Shown: one piece after another, positions 33,447 through 39,796 of the stretch
Layout of the letters: every line of letters begins with the position of its first letter
Position numbering within the stretch: the first letter of the stretch is position 1
IMG/VR virus record: IMGVR_UViG_3300032435_000026
Coordinates: 1-40,934 of that record
Strand: one strand, 5' to 3'
Source: a virus
Length of the DNA stretch: 40,934 nt
Position numbers and translations under genes: made by a program
Notes under the pieces: model-generated
The model's input: the letters and a program-made list of their open reading frames with translations, nothing else
The model's database searches: none
What the model was told of the DNA's origin: nothing

Positions 33447-34033
33447 TGGGGCGCAAACCATGGAACAGGTTGCGACCGACGGCATCTGCTTTGCCGACCG
33501 AACAGACTGCTTCGCCAACGCGAACGGGGATTGGCGGAGTGCGGGTTCCTATCTCGGCGCCGGAGGCAATTCCGCACAAGCCCAAAGCAAGGCGGCGCAA
33601 CCCAGAGGCCGACGCACAGCGCGCGATCGTGACGTTTCTGCGGATGATCCTGCCTCGGCGCGCGATCGTCCACCATTCGGCGAATGAGGTCCGAGGCTCC
33701 GGGCATGATTACGAGCGCGCGCAGGGGCTGGCCGTCGGCATGGGTGTCCACGCCGGGTTCTCTGATCTGCTCGTGATGTCGGAGCAACGGCTGCTCTTCC
33801 TGGAAGTGAAAAGCATGACTGGTCGCCCGACTGACGCGCAGCGCGAGTTTGAATCGGACGTCGTGGCGCAGGGCCATCCGTACGAAATTGTCCGCAGCGT
33901 CGAGGACACTCGCGCGGCACTCGAAAAGCACAAATTCACAACCCGAGAAAGGAGGAGGCCAATGCCGATAAACCAGGACGGTTTAAGGCCTGTCAGCGAA
34001 ACCGATGTCCGCAGCAAAGGGGATCGACCATGA
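33443..34033 (+). CDS. VRR-NUC domain nuclease
   Basis: 196 aa from ATG 33443 overlapping the preceding stop. After a basic unstructured start, residues ~55-165 show the VRR-NUC pattern: DAQRAIVTFLRMILPRRAIVHHSANE, GVHAGFSDLLVM (D108), LLFLEVKSMTGRPTDAQREFESDVVAQGHPYEIVRSVEDTRAAL with E121 and K123. The family includes Holliday-junction and structure-specific endonucleases. Expected role is processing of replication or recombination intermediates. ATGA-coupled to the initiator gene. Confidence 0.85.
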   Translation: MMGRKPWNRLRPTASALPTEQTASPTRTGIGGVRVPISAPEAIPHKPKARRRNPEADAQRAIVTFLRMILPRRAIVHHSANEVRGSGHDYERAQGLAVGMGVHAGFSDLLVMSEQRLLFLEVKSMTGRPTDAQREFESDVVAQGHPYEIVRSVEDTRAALEKHKFTTRERRRPMPINQDGLRPVSETDVRSKGDRP

Positions 34034-34980
34034 GCCACCAAGCGACCAATTGGGCGGTCCAGCAGCGTGGGCTGAAGCCAGCGACCAAGATTGTCCTTTG
34101 GCACCTCTGCGATCGGCATAACCCTGACTACGGCTGCTTTCCATCGCAGCATCAATTGGCCCACGACTGCGAAATGTCGCCGTCGGCGCTGAACGTGCAT
34201 CTGCTCAAACTCGAAGCAGCTGGGCGCATCCGGCGCGTTCAATCACGGGATCCGAAAACAAACCGGCAGCTGCGGACACGCTACATATTGGGGTTCGAGG
34301 CGCTCTTCATACCAGAGCCGACTCCGGAATCAGGAGTCGGGATTGTCGGAACAGAAAAGGAACAGACACCAAAGCCGACTCCGGAATCAGGAGTCGGAAC
34401 CGTCTCCGGAATTGAGGGAAAGCCGACTCCGGATAATGGCCAAAGCCGACTCCGGAATCCGGAGTCTAAGAGTAACCCTGTAACAGAACCATTAAGAGAA
34501 CCAGTAAAGGAGGAGGAGGACGCGCGAGAAAGCGCGAGACGGGTTTCGGATGTTTTGTTTTTGAGGGTTCTCACAGCGCTGGGCATCAACGCCAACCGAT
34601 TGCCAACTTGGTGGCAGGGCGACGCAGCCCGCAGCCACATCGGCAGCTGGCGGCACGATCTTGGGCTTTCAGACAACGCCATCCTCCAAGTCGCTGCAGA
34701 GACCAGGAAGGCGCACGCAGAACCGCCAGACGGTCCGAAGGCGCTCGATCGAGCCATGGCGCGCCGATCGGCGACGGACCGGGCGGCCAGCACCAGGATA
34801 GTTGCGGCAAAGCATTCTGCGCCACAGGCGAGCCTTGGCGAACGCGCGGCCTTCTACGCGGAAATCGTGAACTCGGACGGGTTTCTGGCACCCTCGATGA
34901 TCAGCTGCACCGTCCGAGACGCGATGCTGCATCAAGGCCTCGTGACCGCCGAGCGACTTCGCGAACGAGGGGTGAGATGA
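34030..34980 (+). CDS. Replication initiator, lambda O-like, with origin inside
   Basis: 316 aa. Residues ~1-95 form a winged-helix of the phage replication-initiator type (NWAVQQRGLKPATKIVLWHLCDRHNPDYGCFPSQHQLAHDCEMSPSALNVHLLKLEAAGRIRR). The middle (residues ~97-150) is encoded by iterons and repeats PTPESGVG. The C-terminal part (from ~175) is helical and may recruit the host helicase. This is the same plan as lambda O, in which the origin lies within the gene. Its TGA overlaps the methyltransferase starts. Confidence 0.82.
   Translation: MSHQATNWAVQQRGLKPATKIVLWHLCDRHNPDYGCFPSQHQLAHDCEMSPSALNVHLLKLEAAGRIRRVQSRDPKTNRQLRTRYILGFEALFIPEPTPESGVGIVGTEKEQTPKPTPESGVGTVSGIEGKPTPDNGQSRLRNPESKSNPVTEPLREPVKEEEDARESARRVSDVLFLRVLTALGINANRLPTWWQGDAARSHIGSWRHDLGLSDNAILQVAAETRKAHAEPPDGPKALDRAMARRSATDRAASTRIVAAKHSAPQASLGERAAFYAEIVNSDGFLAPSMISCTVRDAMLHQGLVTAERLRERGVR
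34318..34466. repeat. Iterons within the initiator gene (candidate origin)
   Basis: Dyad repeat with arms CCGACTCCGGA and its complement: near-perfect 23-bp copies at 34318-34340 and 34375-34397, a 21-bp copy at 34446-34466, a half copy at 34423-34439 and a degenerate one at 34400-34416. From 34375 on the starts are 25, 23 and 23 bp apart. A less GC-rich stretch with TAAGAGTAA and ATTAAGAGAA follows (34467-34510), possibly the unwinding element. Confidence 0.75.
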
Positions 34981-37088
34981 ATGACGTGGTGCTACGTCCC
35001 AGAAACGGTATCAGCCTGTGCGCCGGAGCCGGTGGGCTCGACCTTGGGCTCCAGCTGGCCGAATTCGGATATGCAACCCGCTGCTTTGTTGAAAACGATC
35101 CCCGCGCTCAGGAAGCACTCGTCGCCGCAATGGCCTCGGAGCTATTTCTTCATCGCAACCCCGCACGTTCAGCTGCTTATTTCGATGATGTTGATCCTTC
35201 GATATCGGTCGATCCTTCCTTCGCCGGATGGGATACCGGATCTCTCCACACCGCCCCTGTGTGGTCCAACCTGCGAACGTTCATCGGTGATGCGTGGCGC
35301 GGGCATATCAACATCGTCAGTGCGGGATACCCTTGCCAGCCGTTCAGCGCCGCCGGGAAGCGTCTTGGCTCGGATGATCCTCGACACCTCTGGCCCGACG
35401 TCGCCCGAATCCTTGTTGAAACCGGAGCCGAATGGGGATTCTTCGAAAATGTCGCTGGGCACATTTCCCTCGGTCTTGAGACCGTGCTGCGAGACCTTTG
35501 GGACATGGGCTACACGCCTGCGGTTGGCCTATTCTCGTCGGCTGAAGCATTCGGCGCGCACGAACGGCAAAGGGTTTTCATCGTGGCCCACCGCAAGGGT
35601 GGCGGTGGGAGAATACACGCGCGATCGAGGGCAGAAGGGCGCGGAGCGACCGACCTTAAAGGGCACGGCGGTGCTGTGGAAAACGCCATCCGTTCCGAAC
35701 GGCGGGCGGGCGATGCCAGAGGGCATGACGCTGACCGGCCGGAAACAGGACGGGACCAAGGGGCAGGTCGAATTGGAGCACCAAGCGAAGATGTGGGGAA
35801 CCCCGCGGGCATCGGACGCCGATCAGGGATGGTCGCAGAACCTGAACGATGTGGCGGAACAAGGCACTTGGCCGACGCCGCGCGTGCAGATGGCGAAGGG
35901 GGCGGGCGGCAATCAACAGGGCGCAGCAGACCTGCAAACGGTAGTCAGCACCTGGCCGACGCCTGCGGCCCGGGACCACAAGGGCAGCAGCCCGGCGAGT
36001 GTCACGAGGGTCAACGGAAAGACCCGGATGGACTTACTCGATTTTCGAGCCGAGCTGGGATTTCACCACCAGGACCAACCGACGGCGTCGCATGGAGTGC
36101 CGTCCTCAGACTGGCGCCCGATCTCGCGCCGTCTCTTGCGTTCCGCGATCTCGTCAGTCGGGCAAACGACCTTGCTGCGATGGTTGCGGAAGGACGCATG
36201 GCGGAAGCGCAGGCTCAATCCGATCTTCGTCGCATGGCTGATGCGCTGGCCAAGCGGCCACGCGCTTTGCGCATTCTCGGAAACGGAGTGGACCCACTGG
36301 TCGCAGGATATGCGTGGCGCTCTCTCAGCGCTGCCCATGGCCTCGGGCCCTTGGATCTGGGAACCGAAAGAGGAAGCGGCAGAGGCGGTCCAGTTTCAAA
36401 TGTTCAGCGGTGGTGCGGAGTGATGGTTGAACAGCAAACCGGAAGGCGTGCGGCGGCGAATATGCCGGCCGGAATACTTCACCATGCTGCGGAAATGCAT
36501 GCGGCGACCCTGCGGCATGCTGCGGACATGCATGCAGGAAGCCTTCAGCATGCTGCGGACATTCATGCGGCCTCTCTCGAGCATGCTGCGGACATGACGG
36601 AGCAGCATGCGCCCAATGCTGTATCGGCCTTGAACAGCGCCGATATGGGCCTGTTTGCGGCCGATCCGGCAGATACGCCCCCGCAACCCCTTACAAACGC
36701 GGCCAACATGCCCGCGGCGACCCTTCAGCGTGCTGCGCACATGCATGCGGCGACCATGCGGCATGCTGCGGACATGCCTGCCGGAACCCTTCAGCATGCT
36801 GCGGACATGCAGGCGGCCTCCCTCGAGCATGCTGCGGACATGACGGAGCAGCATGCGCCCAATGCTCTCTTGGCCCTGTGTGGCGCGGATATGGGCCTGT
36901 TTGCGGCCGATCCGGCAGATACGCCCCGAAACCCCTTAAAAACGCGCCGGTTATGCCTGCGGCGACCCTTCAGGATGCTGCGGACATTCATGCGGCGACC
37001 CTCGAGCATGCTGCGGACATTCATGCGGCGACCCTTCAGCATGCTGCGGACATGCAGGCGGCCTCCCTCAAGCATGCGGCGGACATGA
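34977..37088 (+). CDS. C5-cytosine DNA methyltransferase with repeat tail
   Basis: 703-aa ORF. Residues 1-450 carry all main C5-methylase motifs: SLCAGAGGLDLGL (motif I, ~13-25), SAGYPCQPFSAAGKR (catalytic Cys in PCQ, ~119), FFENVAGH (motif VI, ~155), HERQRVFIVAH (motif VIII, ~195) and RALRILGNGVDPLVAGYAW (motifs IX-X, ~430-448). The stretch 200-400 is low-complexity (LADAARADGEGG), typical of one phage subfamily. After residue ~482 it runs without a stop into alanine-rich 11-residue repeats, ending out of frame at 37088. The methylase probably ends near residue 470; ATG 36423 is a possible separate start. Confidence 0.85.
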   Translation: MNDVVLRPRNGISLCAGAGGLDLGLQLAEFGYATRCFVENDPRAQEALVAAMASELFLHRNPARSAAYFDDVDPSISVDPSFAGWDTGSLHTAPVWSNLRTFIGDAWRGHINIVSAGYPCQPFSAAGKRLGSDDPRHLWPDVARILVETGAEWGFFENVAGHISLGLETVLRDLWDMGYTPAVGLFSSAEAFGAHERQRVFIVAHRKGGGGRIHARSRAEGRGATDLKGHGGAVENAIRSERRAGDARGHDADRPETGRDQGAGRIGAPSEDVGNPAGIGRRSGMVAEPERCGGTRHLADAARADGEGGGRQSTGRSRPANGSQHLADACGPGPQGQQPGECHEGQRKDPDGLTRFSSRAGISPPGPTDGVAWSAVLRLAPDLAPSLAFRDLVSRANDLAAMVAEGRMAEAQAQSDLRRMADALAKRPRALRILGNGVDPLVAGYAWRSLSAAHGLGPLDLGTERGSGRGGPVSNVQRWCGVMVEQQTGRRAAANMPAGILHHAAEMHAATLRHAADMHAGSLQHAADIHAASLEHAADMTEQHAPNAVSALNSADMGLFAADPADTPPQPLTNAANMPAATLQRAAHMHAATMRHAADMPAGTLQHAADMQAASLEHAADMTEQHAPNALLALCGADMGLFAADPADTPRNPLKTRRLCLRRPFRMLRTFMRRPSSMLRTFMRRPFSMLRTCRRPPSSMRRT
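34981..36423 (+). CDS. Overlapping +1-frame ORF within the methyltransferase gene
   Basis: 480-aa ORF starting four bases after the methylase ATG (ATGAATG) and stopping at TGA 36421-36423, where the TGATG start of the repeat gene lies. From ~residue 200 on it has the repeated motifs SSWPTARVAVGEY, LWKTPSVPNGG, WGTPRASDADQG, WPTPRVQM, WPTPAARDHKG and, near the end, RRLNPIFVAWLMRWPSG, as found in phage methylase-associated proteins. The same DNA words read LADA in the methylase frame. May be a second gene, a remnant of an ancestral frame, or chance openness in GC-rich DNA. Confidence 0.35.
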   Translation: MTWCYVPETVSACAPEPVGSTLGSSWPNSDMQPAALLKTIPALRKHSSPQWPRSYFFIATPHVQLLISMMLILRYRSILPSPDGIPDLSTPPLCGPTCERSSVMRGAGISTSSVRDTLASRSAPPGSVLARMILDTSGPTSPESLLKPEPNGDSSKMSLGTFPSVLRPCCETFGTWATRLRLAYSRRLKHSARTNGKGFSSWPTARVAVGEYTRDRGQKGAERPTLKGTAVLWKTPSVPNGGRAMPEGMTLTGRKQDGTKGQVELEHQAKMWGTPRASDADQGWSQNLNDVAEQGTWPTPRVQMAKGAGGNQQGAADLQTVVSTWPTPAARDHKGSSPASVTRVNGKTRMDLLDFRAELGFHHQDQPTASHGVPSSDWRPISRRLLRSAISSVGQTTLLRWLRKDAWRKRRLNPIFVAWLMRWPSGHALCAFSETEWTHWSQDMRGALSALPMASGPWIWEPKEEAAEAVQFQMFSGGAE

Positions 37089-37340
37089 AGGAGCAGCATG
37101 CGCCCAATGCTCTCTTGGCCCTTTGTGGCGCGGATATCGGGCGGTACCGGGGAAATCAGGCGGATATGTCGGCGAAAGCCCTCACAATCGCGGCCGACAT
37201 GCCTGCCGGAACCCTTCAGCATGCTGCGCACATGCATGCGGCGACCCTGCGGCATGCTGCGGACATGCATGCGGCCTCCCTTGAGCATGCTGCGGACATG
37301 ACGGAGCAGCATGCGCCCAATGCTCTCTTGGCCCTGCGAC
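36465..37340. repeat. Array of 33-bp tandem repeats
   Basis: Unit of about 33 bp containing GCATGCTGCGGACATGCATG, i.e. dense 8-10 bp palindromes (CAGCATGCTG, CATGCATG). Units group into four blocks separated by a related spacer starting (A/T)...GAGCAGCATGCGCCCAA at 36597, 36843, 37088 and 37301, giving a ~246-bp super-repeat (one 245, one 213). In the plus frame each unit reads as an 11-residue alanine-rich motif such as HAADMHAATLQ. Confidence 0.88.
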
Positions 37341-38262: not shown

Positions 38263-38539
38263 CGTCTACCCCCCCCGGCTATGGTTCCTCCCTTGCCCAC
38301 ATCGTATACGGGGGGGCTAAGCGCGCAAGATCGCTAGCGACTGGCCTAAAAATTATGGAAGCCACCGAAGCCAAAAAGCCAGTCTGGCCGCGCGCTGAAC
38401 CTTCAACAAAACAAAGCGTTTGCGAAACAGTAGCATCGCGCGCACTGGATTTTTTCTGCCAGAAATGGGGAAGCCACTTTGGCTTTGTTCCAACTGGATT
38501 TTGGAAGCCACCTCGCGTGGCGTGAAAGCAGACGACAGA

Positions 38540-39796
38540 ATGGATTTGATCTTCGTTCCGCAGACCGTCGAGCAGTGGCCGCTTGATCGCCTAAAGGCCT
38601 ATGCTCGAAACGCAAAGCTGCACTCGCCCGATCAGGTCACACGCATTGCGGCCAGCATGGTGGAGTTCGGCTGGACCAATCCTTGTTTTGTTGCCGACGA
38701 CGGCGAGCTGATTGCTGGTCACGGGCGAATTCTTGCTGCTGCTCAACTCGGCATTGAGACAGCGCCAGTCATCGTTCTCAGTCATCTGTCGGATGCGCAG
38801 CGCATCGCATATCGCCTGGCGGACAATTTGTTGGCTGATCTTGGCACGTATGATCAGGAGGCGTTGCACGAGCAAGTGCAGCTGCTGATGGCAGAGGATT
38901 ACGACATCGACCTTCTCGGCTTCACGGACGAGCACCTGAACGCACTTCTTTCGATCGGCGAAGGGAACGAAGGTGGAGTCGAGGGCGAGGATGATATCCC
39001 GGAGGTGTCGGCAACGCCGGTGTCGATCGCTGGTGACGTCTGGGTGTTGGGAAGCCACCGCCTGATCTGCGGGGACAGCACTTCGGCCGACGTCGTCGAC
39101 AGATTGCTCGGCGGTGTCAAACCGCAGCTGATGGTGACCGATCCTCCCTACGGCGTGGAGTACGATCCCTCTTGGCGCAACGAGGTTGGTGCCGCAAAGA
39201 CAAAGCGGAGCGGCAAGGTTCTGAATGATCATCGCGCGGACTGGCGCGAAGCCTGGGCGCTGTTCCCTGGCGACGTCGCCTACGTCTGGCACGGAGCGCT
39301 GCACGCGGCCGTCGTCGCGTCGTCTCTGGAGGCCACCGGCTTCGCCATCCGCTCGCAGATCATCTGGGCGAAGGAGCGCTTGGTGCTCAGCCGGGGTGAT
39401 TACCACTGGCAGCACGAGCCTTGTTGGTATGCCGTGCGGAAAAAGGGGACTGGCCATTGGGCAGGTGACCGGAAGCAGACGACGCTCTGGCAGATTTCCG
39501 CCAAGGACCAGGACGCGGAGACGGTGCACGGGACGCAGAAGCCGGTCGAATGCATGCGGCGGCCAATGGCAAACAACTCAAGCCCTGGGCAAGCGATCTA
39601 CGAGCCGTTCATGGGTTCTGGCACGACGCTGATCGCGGCGGAGACGTGCGGCCGAGTCTGCTACGGGATCGAACTGGATCCGGCCTACGTCGACGTTGCG
39701 GTGGAGCGCTGGCAGAACCTGACTGGCCAGACGGCGATCGAGGAAGAGACCGGCAAGACGCTGGAGGATCTGCGAGGCGAGCGGCTCACCGCCTGA
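38540..39796 (+). CDS. ParB-like / DNA N6-adenine methyltransferase fusion
   Basis: 418 aa from ATG 38540. Residues ~1-110 are a ParB/Srx-like domain (WPLDRLKAYARNAKLHSPDQVTRIAASMVEFGWTNPCFVADDGELIAGHGRILAAAQLG) with the GHGR motif. Residues ~165-415 form a beta-class methylase: LICGDSTSADVVDRLL, VTDPPYGVEY (catalytic DPPY, ~201-204), QKPVECMRRPM, and the SAM motif YEPFMGSGTTLIAAE (~357). Beta order (DPPY before FxGSGT) is as in CcrM-type enzymes. Such fusions occur in Mu-like and siphoviral prophages and protect DNA. Last gene of the rightward early operon. Confidence 0.92.
   Translation: MDLIFVPQTVEQWPLDRLKAYARNAKLHSPDQVTRIAASMVEFGWTNPCFVADDGELIAGHGRILAAAQLGIETAPVIVLSHLSDAQRIAYRLADNLLADLGTYDQEALHEQVQLLMAEDYDIDLLGFTDEHLNALLSIGEGNEGGVEGEDDIPEVSATPVSIAGDVWVLGSHRLICGDSTSADVVDRLLGGVKPQLMVTDPPYGVEYDPSWRNEVGAAKTKRSGKVLNDHRADWREAWALFPGDVAYVWHGALHAAVVASSLEATGFAIRSQIIWAKERLVLSRGDYHWQHEPCWYAVRKKGTGHWAGDRKQTTLWQISAKDQDAETVHGTQKPVECMRRPMANNSSPGQAIYEPFMGSGTTLIAAETCGRVCYGIELDPAYVDVAVERWQNLTGQTAIEEETGKTLEDLRGERLTA

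Follow-up and report, generated by a model that had tools for sequence, protein, structure and literature searches.

The 40,934-base viral sequence IMGVR_UViG_3300032435_000026, analysed here over its full length (the window) and in which phage terminase and portal genes were recognised, carries a C5-cytosine DNA methyltransferase gene whose DNA is open in two frames of the same strand over about 1,440 bases, that is about 480 codons. The first frame (frame 0, hereafter alpha) is open from an ATG at 34977 through 37085, and its methyltransferase part, which we assign to a catalytic subunit, covers 34977..36430. The second frame (+1, hereafter beta) runs uninterrupted for 480 codons from an ATG at 34981 to a TGA at 36421-36423 and would encode a recognition subunit of 480 residues (34981..36423); these and all features below are on the plus strand. 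An earlier reading of the letters alone (the original prediction) had given exactly these starts for both frames and this end for the +1 frame, and was also right about the ATGAATG at their start and the TGATG at the end of the +1 frame. The two start codons (34977..34983) follow a purine-rich GAGGGG and enclose a central TGA (34978-34980), which is the stop codon of the upstream helix-turn-helix gene (34030..34980; PF13730, E 2e-12).

The alpha frame matches PF00145 (E 3.4e-23) and displays the core of a C5-cytosine DNA methyltransferase on one chain, with motif I (LCAGAGG, 35016..35036), motif IV and its catalytic cysteine (GYPCQP, 35325..35342; GxPCQ is invariant in A5), motif VI (FENVAG, 35442..35459; EN invariant) and motif VIII (ERQRVFIV, 35562..35585). 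It does not constitute a complete single-chain enzyme, as the target-recognition domain (TRD) and motifs IX and X are not all found with this core: motif X (ILGNGVDP, 36273..36296) is in alpha and motif IX in beta. In the AF2 model of alpha, the core is confident (residues ~9-213, predicted local distance difference test (pLDDT) 85-97) and helices surround motif X, with residues 214-361 (35616..36059) between them predicted to be an unstructured linker of pLDDT 30-41 and no secondary structure. The best Foldseek matches of this model were M.HaeIII (E 5.7e-12) and M.HhaI, over about 206 aligned columns of 324-327 residues, mostly in the core.

The DNA of this linker is also that of the beta TRD (35584..35985), which is recognised from its substitution pattern and from homology to single-chain enzymes and contains W(P/K/G)T(A/P) blocks at 35584, 35677, 35794, 35869 and 35953, the first one (WPTA) beginning at the end of alpha motif VIII. 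The double reading noted previously is genuine, CACTTGGCCGACGCC near 35865-35880 giving HLADA in frame 0 and TWPTP in frame +1. Further on, the beta equivalent of motif IX (RRLNPIFVAWLMRWPSG, 36208..36258) is the most conserved segment of this frame. The DNA of alpha motif X overlaps the C-terminal beta segment SETEWTHWSQDMRGALS, with constraint in both frames, and encodes part of FSETEWTHWSQDMRGALS in frame +1, as had been described. Ahead of the TRD, beta overprints the IV-VIII region of alpha (PPGSVLARMILDTSG, 35350..35394), an assignment based on the openness and similarity tests presented below. Searched separately from alpha, as the original prediction had proposed, beta matches phrog_27243 (E 3.2e-47) and phrog_1008 (E 9.6e-30), the latter labelled DNA methyltransferase. 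It had no match in Pfam or NCBIfam, and a sequence search of beta against the PDB gave no meaningful one.

Scanning viral and bacterial contigs with an alignment of beta led to 160 loci, and in nearly all of the 160 loci with a beta motif IX (scans and earlier loci together) beta lies exactly in the +1 frame relative to an open reading frame (ORF) with alpha motifs. A search of viral contigs with frame 0 returned no locus. A strict set of 146 loci, in which a single alpha ORF contains both motif IV and motif X, was used for counting; these loci were found through beta, the openness of alpha from IV to X is a condition of their selection and they are phylogenetically related, so the counts are to be taken as guides. 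An IX-like core is present near the C-terminus in 144 of the 146 beta frames and between motifs VIII and X in none of the 146 alpha frames, which contradicts the earlier statement that frame 0 holds all the C5-methylase motifs. Neither a +1 frame regularly broken by stops in homologues nor a lack of independent homologues of its product, the two outcomes named beforehand as contrary to overprinting, was found, beta having its own PHROG families and homologues in phages of Paenibacillus, cyanobacteria, Salmonella, Acinetobacter, Streptomyces, Bacteroides and others. Beta relatives lying over the same methylase gene were also retrieved by tblastn in Paenibacillus and Synechococcus phages. Two loci of this collection have particular structures: one contains two successive alpha/beta pairs, of which the second begins where the first ends (L026:133-1952), and the other has motifs I, IV, VI and IX in one frame and X in another, owing to an insertion or deletion in the TRD region that is either biological or a sequencing error (L077:1846-2982).

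The openness of the frames was compared with a chance expectation obtained by shuffling synonymous codons. Of the 146 related loci, 137 have no stop in beta from motif IV to motif X, for 7.9 expected, and none has a stop-free third frame. Regions were compared separately in 62 loci sharing less than 60% identity. All 62 have an open beta over IV-VIII, where 20.0 were expected, and an open alpha over VIII-IX, the TRD, where 2.6 were expected; over I-IV, beta is open in 39 of 53 loci, versus 22.1 expected. This shuffling across loci rules out a chance open frame as an explanation. The weight of the evidence comes here from the homologues, since in the window by itself the +1 frame is open in approximately 8% of the shuffles.

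The frame on which selection acts was read from substitution rates by codon position, alpha position 1 being beta position 3. In the group of the window, I-III and IV-VIII vary most at alpha position 3 (0.52 and 0.42; for example 0.23/0.14/0.42 for the three positions within I-VIII). Over motif IX it is alpha position 1, hence beta position 3, which evolves fastest (0.30 vs 0.14 and 0.11), and in a beta-based alignment of the TRD, beta position 3 has the highest rates (0.50, 0.40, 0.44). Rates are near even in the X region (0.26, 0.22, 0.29). The pattern over I-VIII, TRD and IX recurs in two other groups, with more uneven rates in the X region. When 34 families sharing less than 45% identity were compared, the excess of +1-frame similarity over the shuffled null had a z of 19.2 across IV-VIII, versus 6.0 for the +2 control, and was weak across I-IV (z 8.7 versus 3.7). 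Both frames are thus open and constrained in divergent homologues, in different regions: alpha drives I-VIII, beta drives TRD-IX and both matter at X, a switch explained by the partition of the motifs between the two frames. The suggestion of true overprinting is supported by this shift of the constrained frame along the DNA and by the openness of the +1 frame across homologues.

Relatives with other arrangements of the motifs clarify the nature of beta. The Mycobacterium phages Rita and Quico have a single chain with motifs I-VIII, an LLPTP-type TRD, IX and X, and the beta profile hidden Markov model matches residues 189-350 of Rita (i-E 5.5e-17) and likewise Quico (i-E 5.5e-17). In such single-chain relatives the segment corresponding to beta motif IX sits directly before X. 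Over the core, Rita, Quico and the Gordonia phage Trax retain an ORF in the +1 frame with a match to the N-terminal part of beta. In a further set, TRD, IX and X are all in the beta frame (Streptomyces phage Samy, Mycobacterium phages Pumbaa and Firecracker, L032, L037, L078 and L085). The other possibility raised at the outset, that of two protein families arisen from each other by frameshift, can therefore be kept in a refined form, because the single-chain relatives have TRD and IX in frame: the functional half of the +1 product is the methyltransferase's own TRD and motif IX, displaced. As frame 0 has neither a motif IX nor a folded TRD, the two frames resemble two subunits of one enzyme, a point that the original prediction had missed. 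C5-methyltransferases of Streptococcus, Lactococcus and Brochothrix phages (L180, L181, L183, L184) have a +1 ORF of ~140-170 residues over the core, with a conserved SLSDILEExVDEKYFLS-like stretch close to its end, and in L180, L181 and L184 the classical IX and X are in frame 0; this ORF may represent an independent overprinted fragment belonging to a different type of TRD.

The beginning of the two frames is conserved as well. An alpha start followed by the beta ATG four nucleotides on was found in 106 of the 146 loci, with an exact NTGAATG in 103, of which 89 are preceded by an ORF of 80 codons or more that stops at the central TGA and 94 have a Shine-Dalgarno-like stretch. Where alpha has Asn at codon 2, 97 of 100 loci use AAT, the codon that the beta ATG requires, and AAT makes up 109 of the 360 other Asn codons; using representatives only, the proportions are 19/22 and 51/157 elsewhere (Fisher 1.7e-6). 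RTGAATG is the apparent start site of both subunits, their two start codons being separated by the TGA stop of the upstream gene, and expression looks arranged for two products, including a putatively translated beta. In other groups (Paenibacillus and E. coli type), beta seems to start internally, and stop/start coupling 3' of alpha or beta follows a mixed pattern.

Altogether, it is very probable that one DNA segment encodes, in overlapping frames, both subunits of a heteromeric C5-cytosine methyltransferase resembling M.EcoHK31I, for which we infer translation, assembly, specificity and role. The support comes from the open and constrained frames, the motif partition, the in-frame fusion in relatives, the alpha model without a folded TRD and the conserved double start. 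Alpha would contribute the core that binds S-adenosylmethionine and carries out catalysis (I-VIII), together with the helix of motif X and a flexible linker between VIII and X, and beta would provide the TRD and motif IX. Ribosomes could initiate at either ATG, four nucleotides apart around the TGA of the upstream gene, yielding both chains from one mRNA, and alpha and beta would then assemble into the usual two-lobed enzyme. The neighbour genes examined include no recognised restriction nuclease next to the pair, and the most likely role would accordingly be that of an orphan phage methylase marking the phage DNA against host restriction.

Several observations weigh against this interpretation. 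The AF2 model of beta alone is of low confidence (pLDDT 58.6, predicted template modelling score 0.24), and its TRD fold is thus a putative one. Comparison by hhalign of the beta profile with four classical single-chain C5 enzymes gave no match, so that the assignment of motif IX in beta relies on its pattern, its position and the actinophage single chains. Residues 1 to ~110 of beta are scarcely constrained beyond alpha; they may be a passive lead-in, and the beta start might be internal rather than at 34981. The alpha frame of the window has no stop near the end of beta and continues into a repeat array until 37085, unlike most relatives, in which alpha ends near the beta stop.

Among other explanations, a programmed +1 frameshift after motif VIII would produce a single chain I-VIII-TRD-IX, making the overlap a recoding window instead of the product of two starts. 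It would fit with the change of constrained frame right after VIII, with the existence of single-chain relatives and with Pumbaa, Samy and L032, in which IX and X stand together in the beta frame and one slip would give a whole enzyme. We nevertheless consider it improbable: motif X lies back in frame 0 in the window and in at least 146 loci, which calls for a second slip, frameshifting requires neither an alpha open through the TRD nor a beta open before VIII (each seen in 62/62 loci), and it leaves the double start and the AAT preference unexplained. Even less probable is a beta that acts independently of the methylase, for instance in anti-restriction or regulation, and overprints it by happenstance. 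The lack of a Pfam or NCBIfam match and the uninformative AF2 model of beta would allow it, but the beta TRD-IX forms part of single-chain methylases, beta is paired with an alpha devoid of IX and one of its matching PHROG families is labelled DNA methyltransferase. That frame 0 alone is functional and the +1 frame an open shadow of GC-rich codon use is hardly credible, despite the openness of the +1 frame in about 8% of shuffles of the window and the E. coli and Salmonella copies annotated with frame 0 only, given the large excess of open beta frames over expectation, the beta-driven substitutions over TRD and IX that contradict a passive frame, the absence of IX and of a folded TRD in frame 0 and the conservation in Paenibacillus phages.

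The heteromeric enzyme proposed here has precedents among two-polypeptide C5-methyltransferases. Among these are M.EcoHK31I and M.EaeI, recognising YGGCCR, and Lee, Kam and Shaw reportedly found in 1995 that EcoHK31I beta is encoded within alpha in another frame. In M.EcoHK31I, the larger chain has motifs I-VIII and X, the smaller alone has IX, and the predicted TRD was placed in the large subunit (PMC3404938). The window matches this published description in having two chains with I-VIII and X split from IX. It differs in the location of the TRD, assigned to beta by the constraint, fusion and structure evidence; the TRD-like blocks and the constraint in beta, and the in-frame TRD homologues that match beta, set the window apart from the M.EcoHK31I type. 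A second difference is that M.EcoHK31I is part of a restriction-modification system, whereas no partner nuclease was recognised among the genes examined beside this pair. The EcoHK31I sequence itself, cited in PMC6174562 as GenBank X82231, was not located in searches of E. coli or plasmids, which returned prophage-type pairs instead. M.AquI is similar by its alpha with I-VIII and its second chain with the TRD part and IX, a split shown exactly by L032, Samy and Pumbaa, and differs by its motif X, which is in the small subunit (PMC3404938) and in alpha in the window. IX and X together in the small subunit, as in M.AquI, were found in L032, L078, L169, L187 and L189. By profile, the window beta belongs to both phrog_1008 and phrog_27243, of which the second is labelled unknown; neither label mentions an overlap with a catalytic gene. 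A related annotated case is DIVA_50 ("g49 internal gene") of Paenibacillus phage Diva, a beta relative annotated within a methyltransferase gene, which differs from the window beta by its 234 residues, its internal start and an annotation without function.

Annotation of the homologues is uneven. Both frames are annotated in Diva; only alpha in the E. coli loci L171 and L173-L175 and in Salmonella phage S9-5; only the beta frame, as a hypothetical protein and with the catalytic alpha missed, in a Sphingomonas plasmid (L006, 2324-3415) and a Synechococcus phage (L002, 2840-3955); and just a part of beta in Roseicitreum plasmid pRA03. A literature search from which most subscription journals were excluded found no paper on overlapping phage cytosine methylases or on their wide phage distribution. 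Two-polypeptide C5 enzymes are already known; their wide and often unannotated distribution in phages appears undescribed in the literature covered by this search. On balance, we favour the view that nested two-frame genes are a common and largely unrecognised architecture of phage C5-methyltransferases, in which the subunits share hundreds of codons and a three-frame junction at RTGAATG, many annotated phage and prophage enzymes being half of a pair. If so, this same-strand overlap would be very long, would make clear functional sense and would recur in distant phage groups, with one of its two subunits often missing from the annotation. Orphan methylases that seem inactive when cloned as a single ORF could be accounted for in this way and, with its single-chain and AquI-type intermediates, the arrangement would offer a natural system for how a gene becomes read in two frames.

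Downstream of the overlap, a tandem array occupies 36477-37300, just past the beta stop, with a 246-base period, 3.4 copies and 33-base subunits (HAADMHA-type reading). A second methyltransferase gene is present at 38420-39796 (N6_N4_Mtase, E 9e-20), with a weak ParB-like match at its N-terminus.

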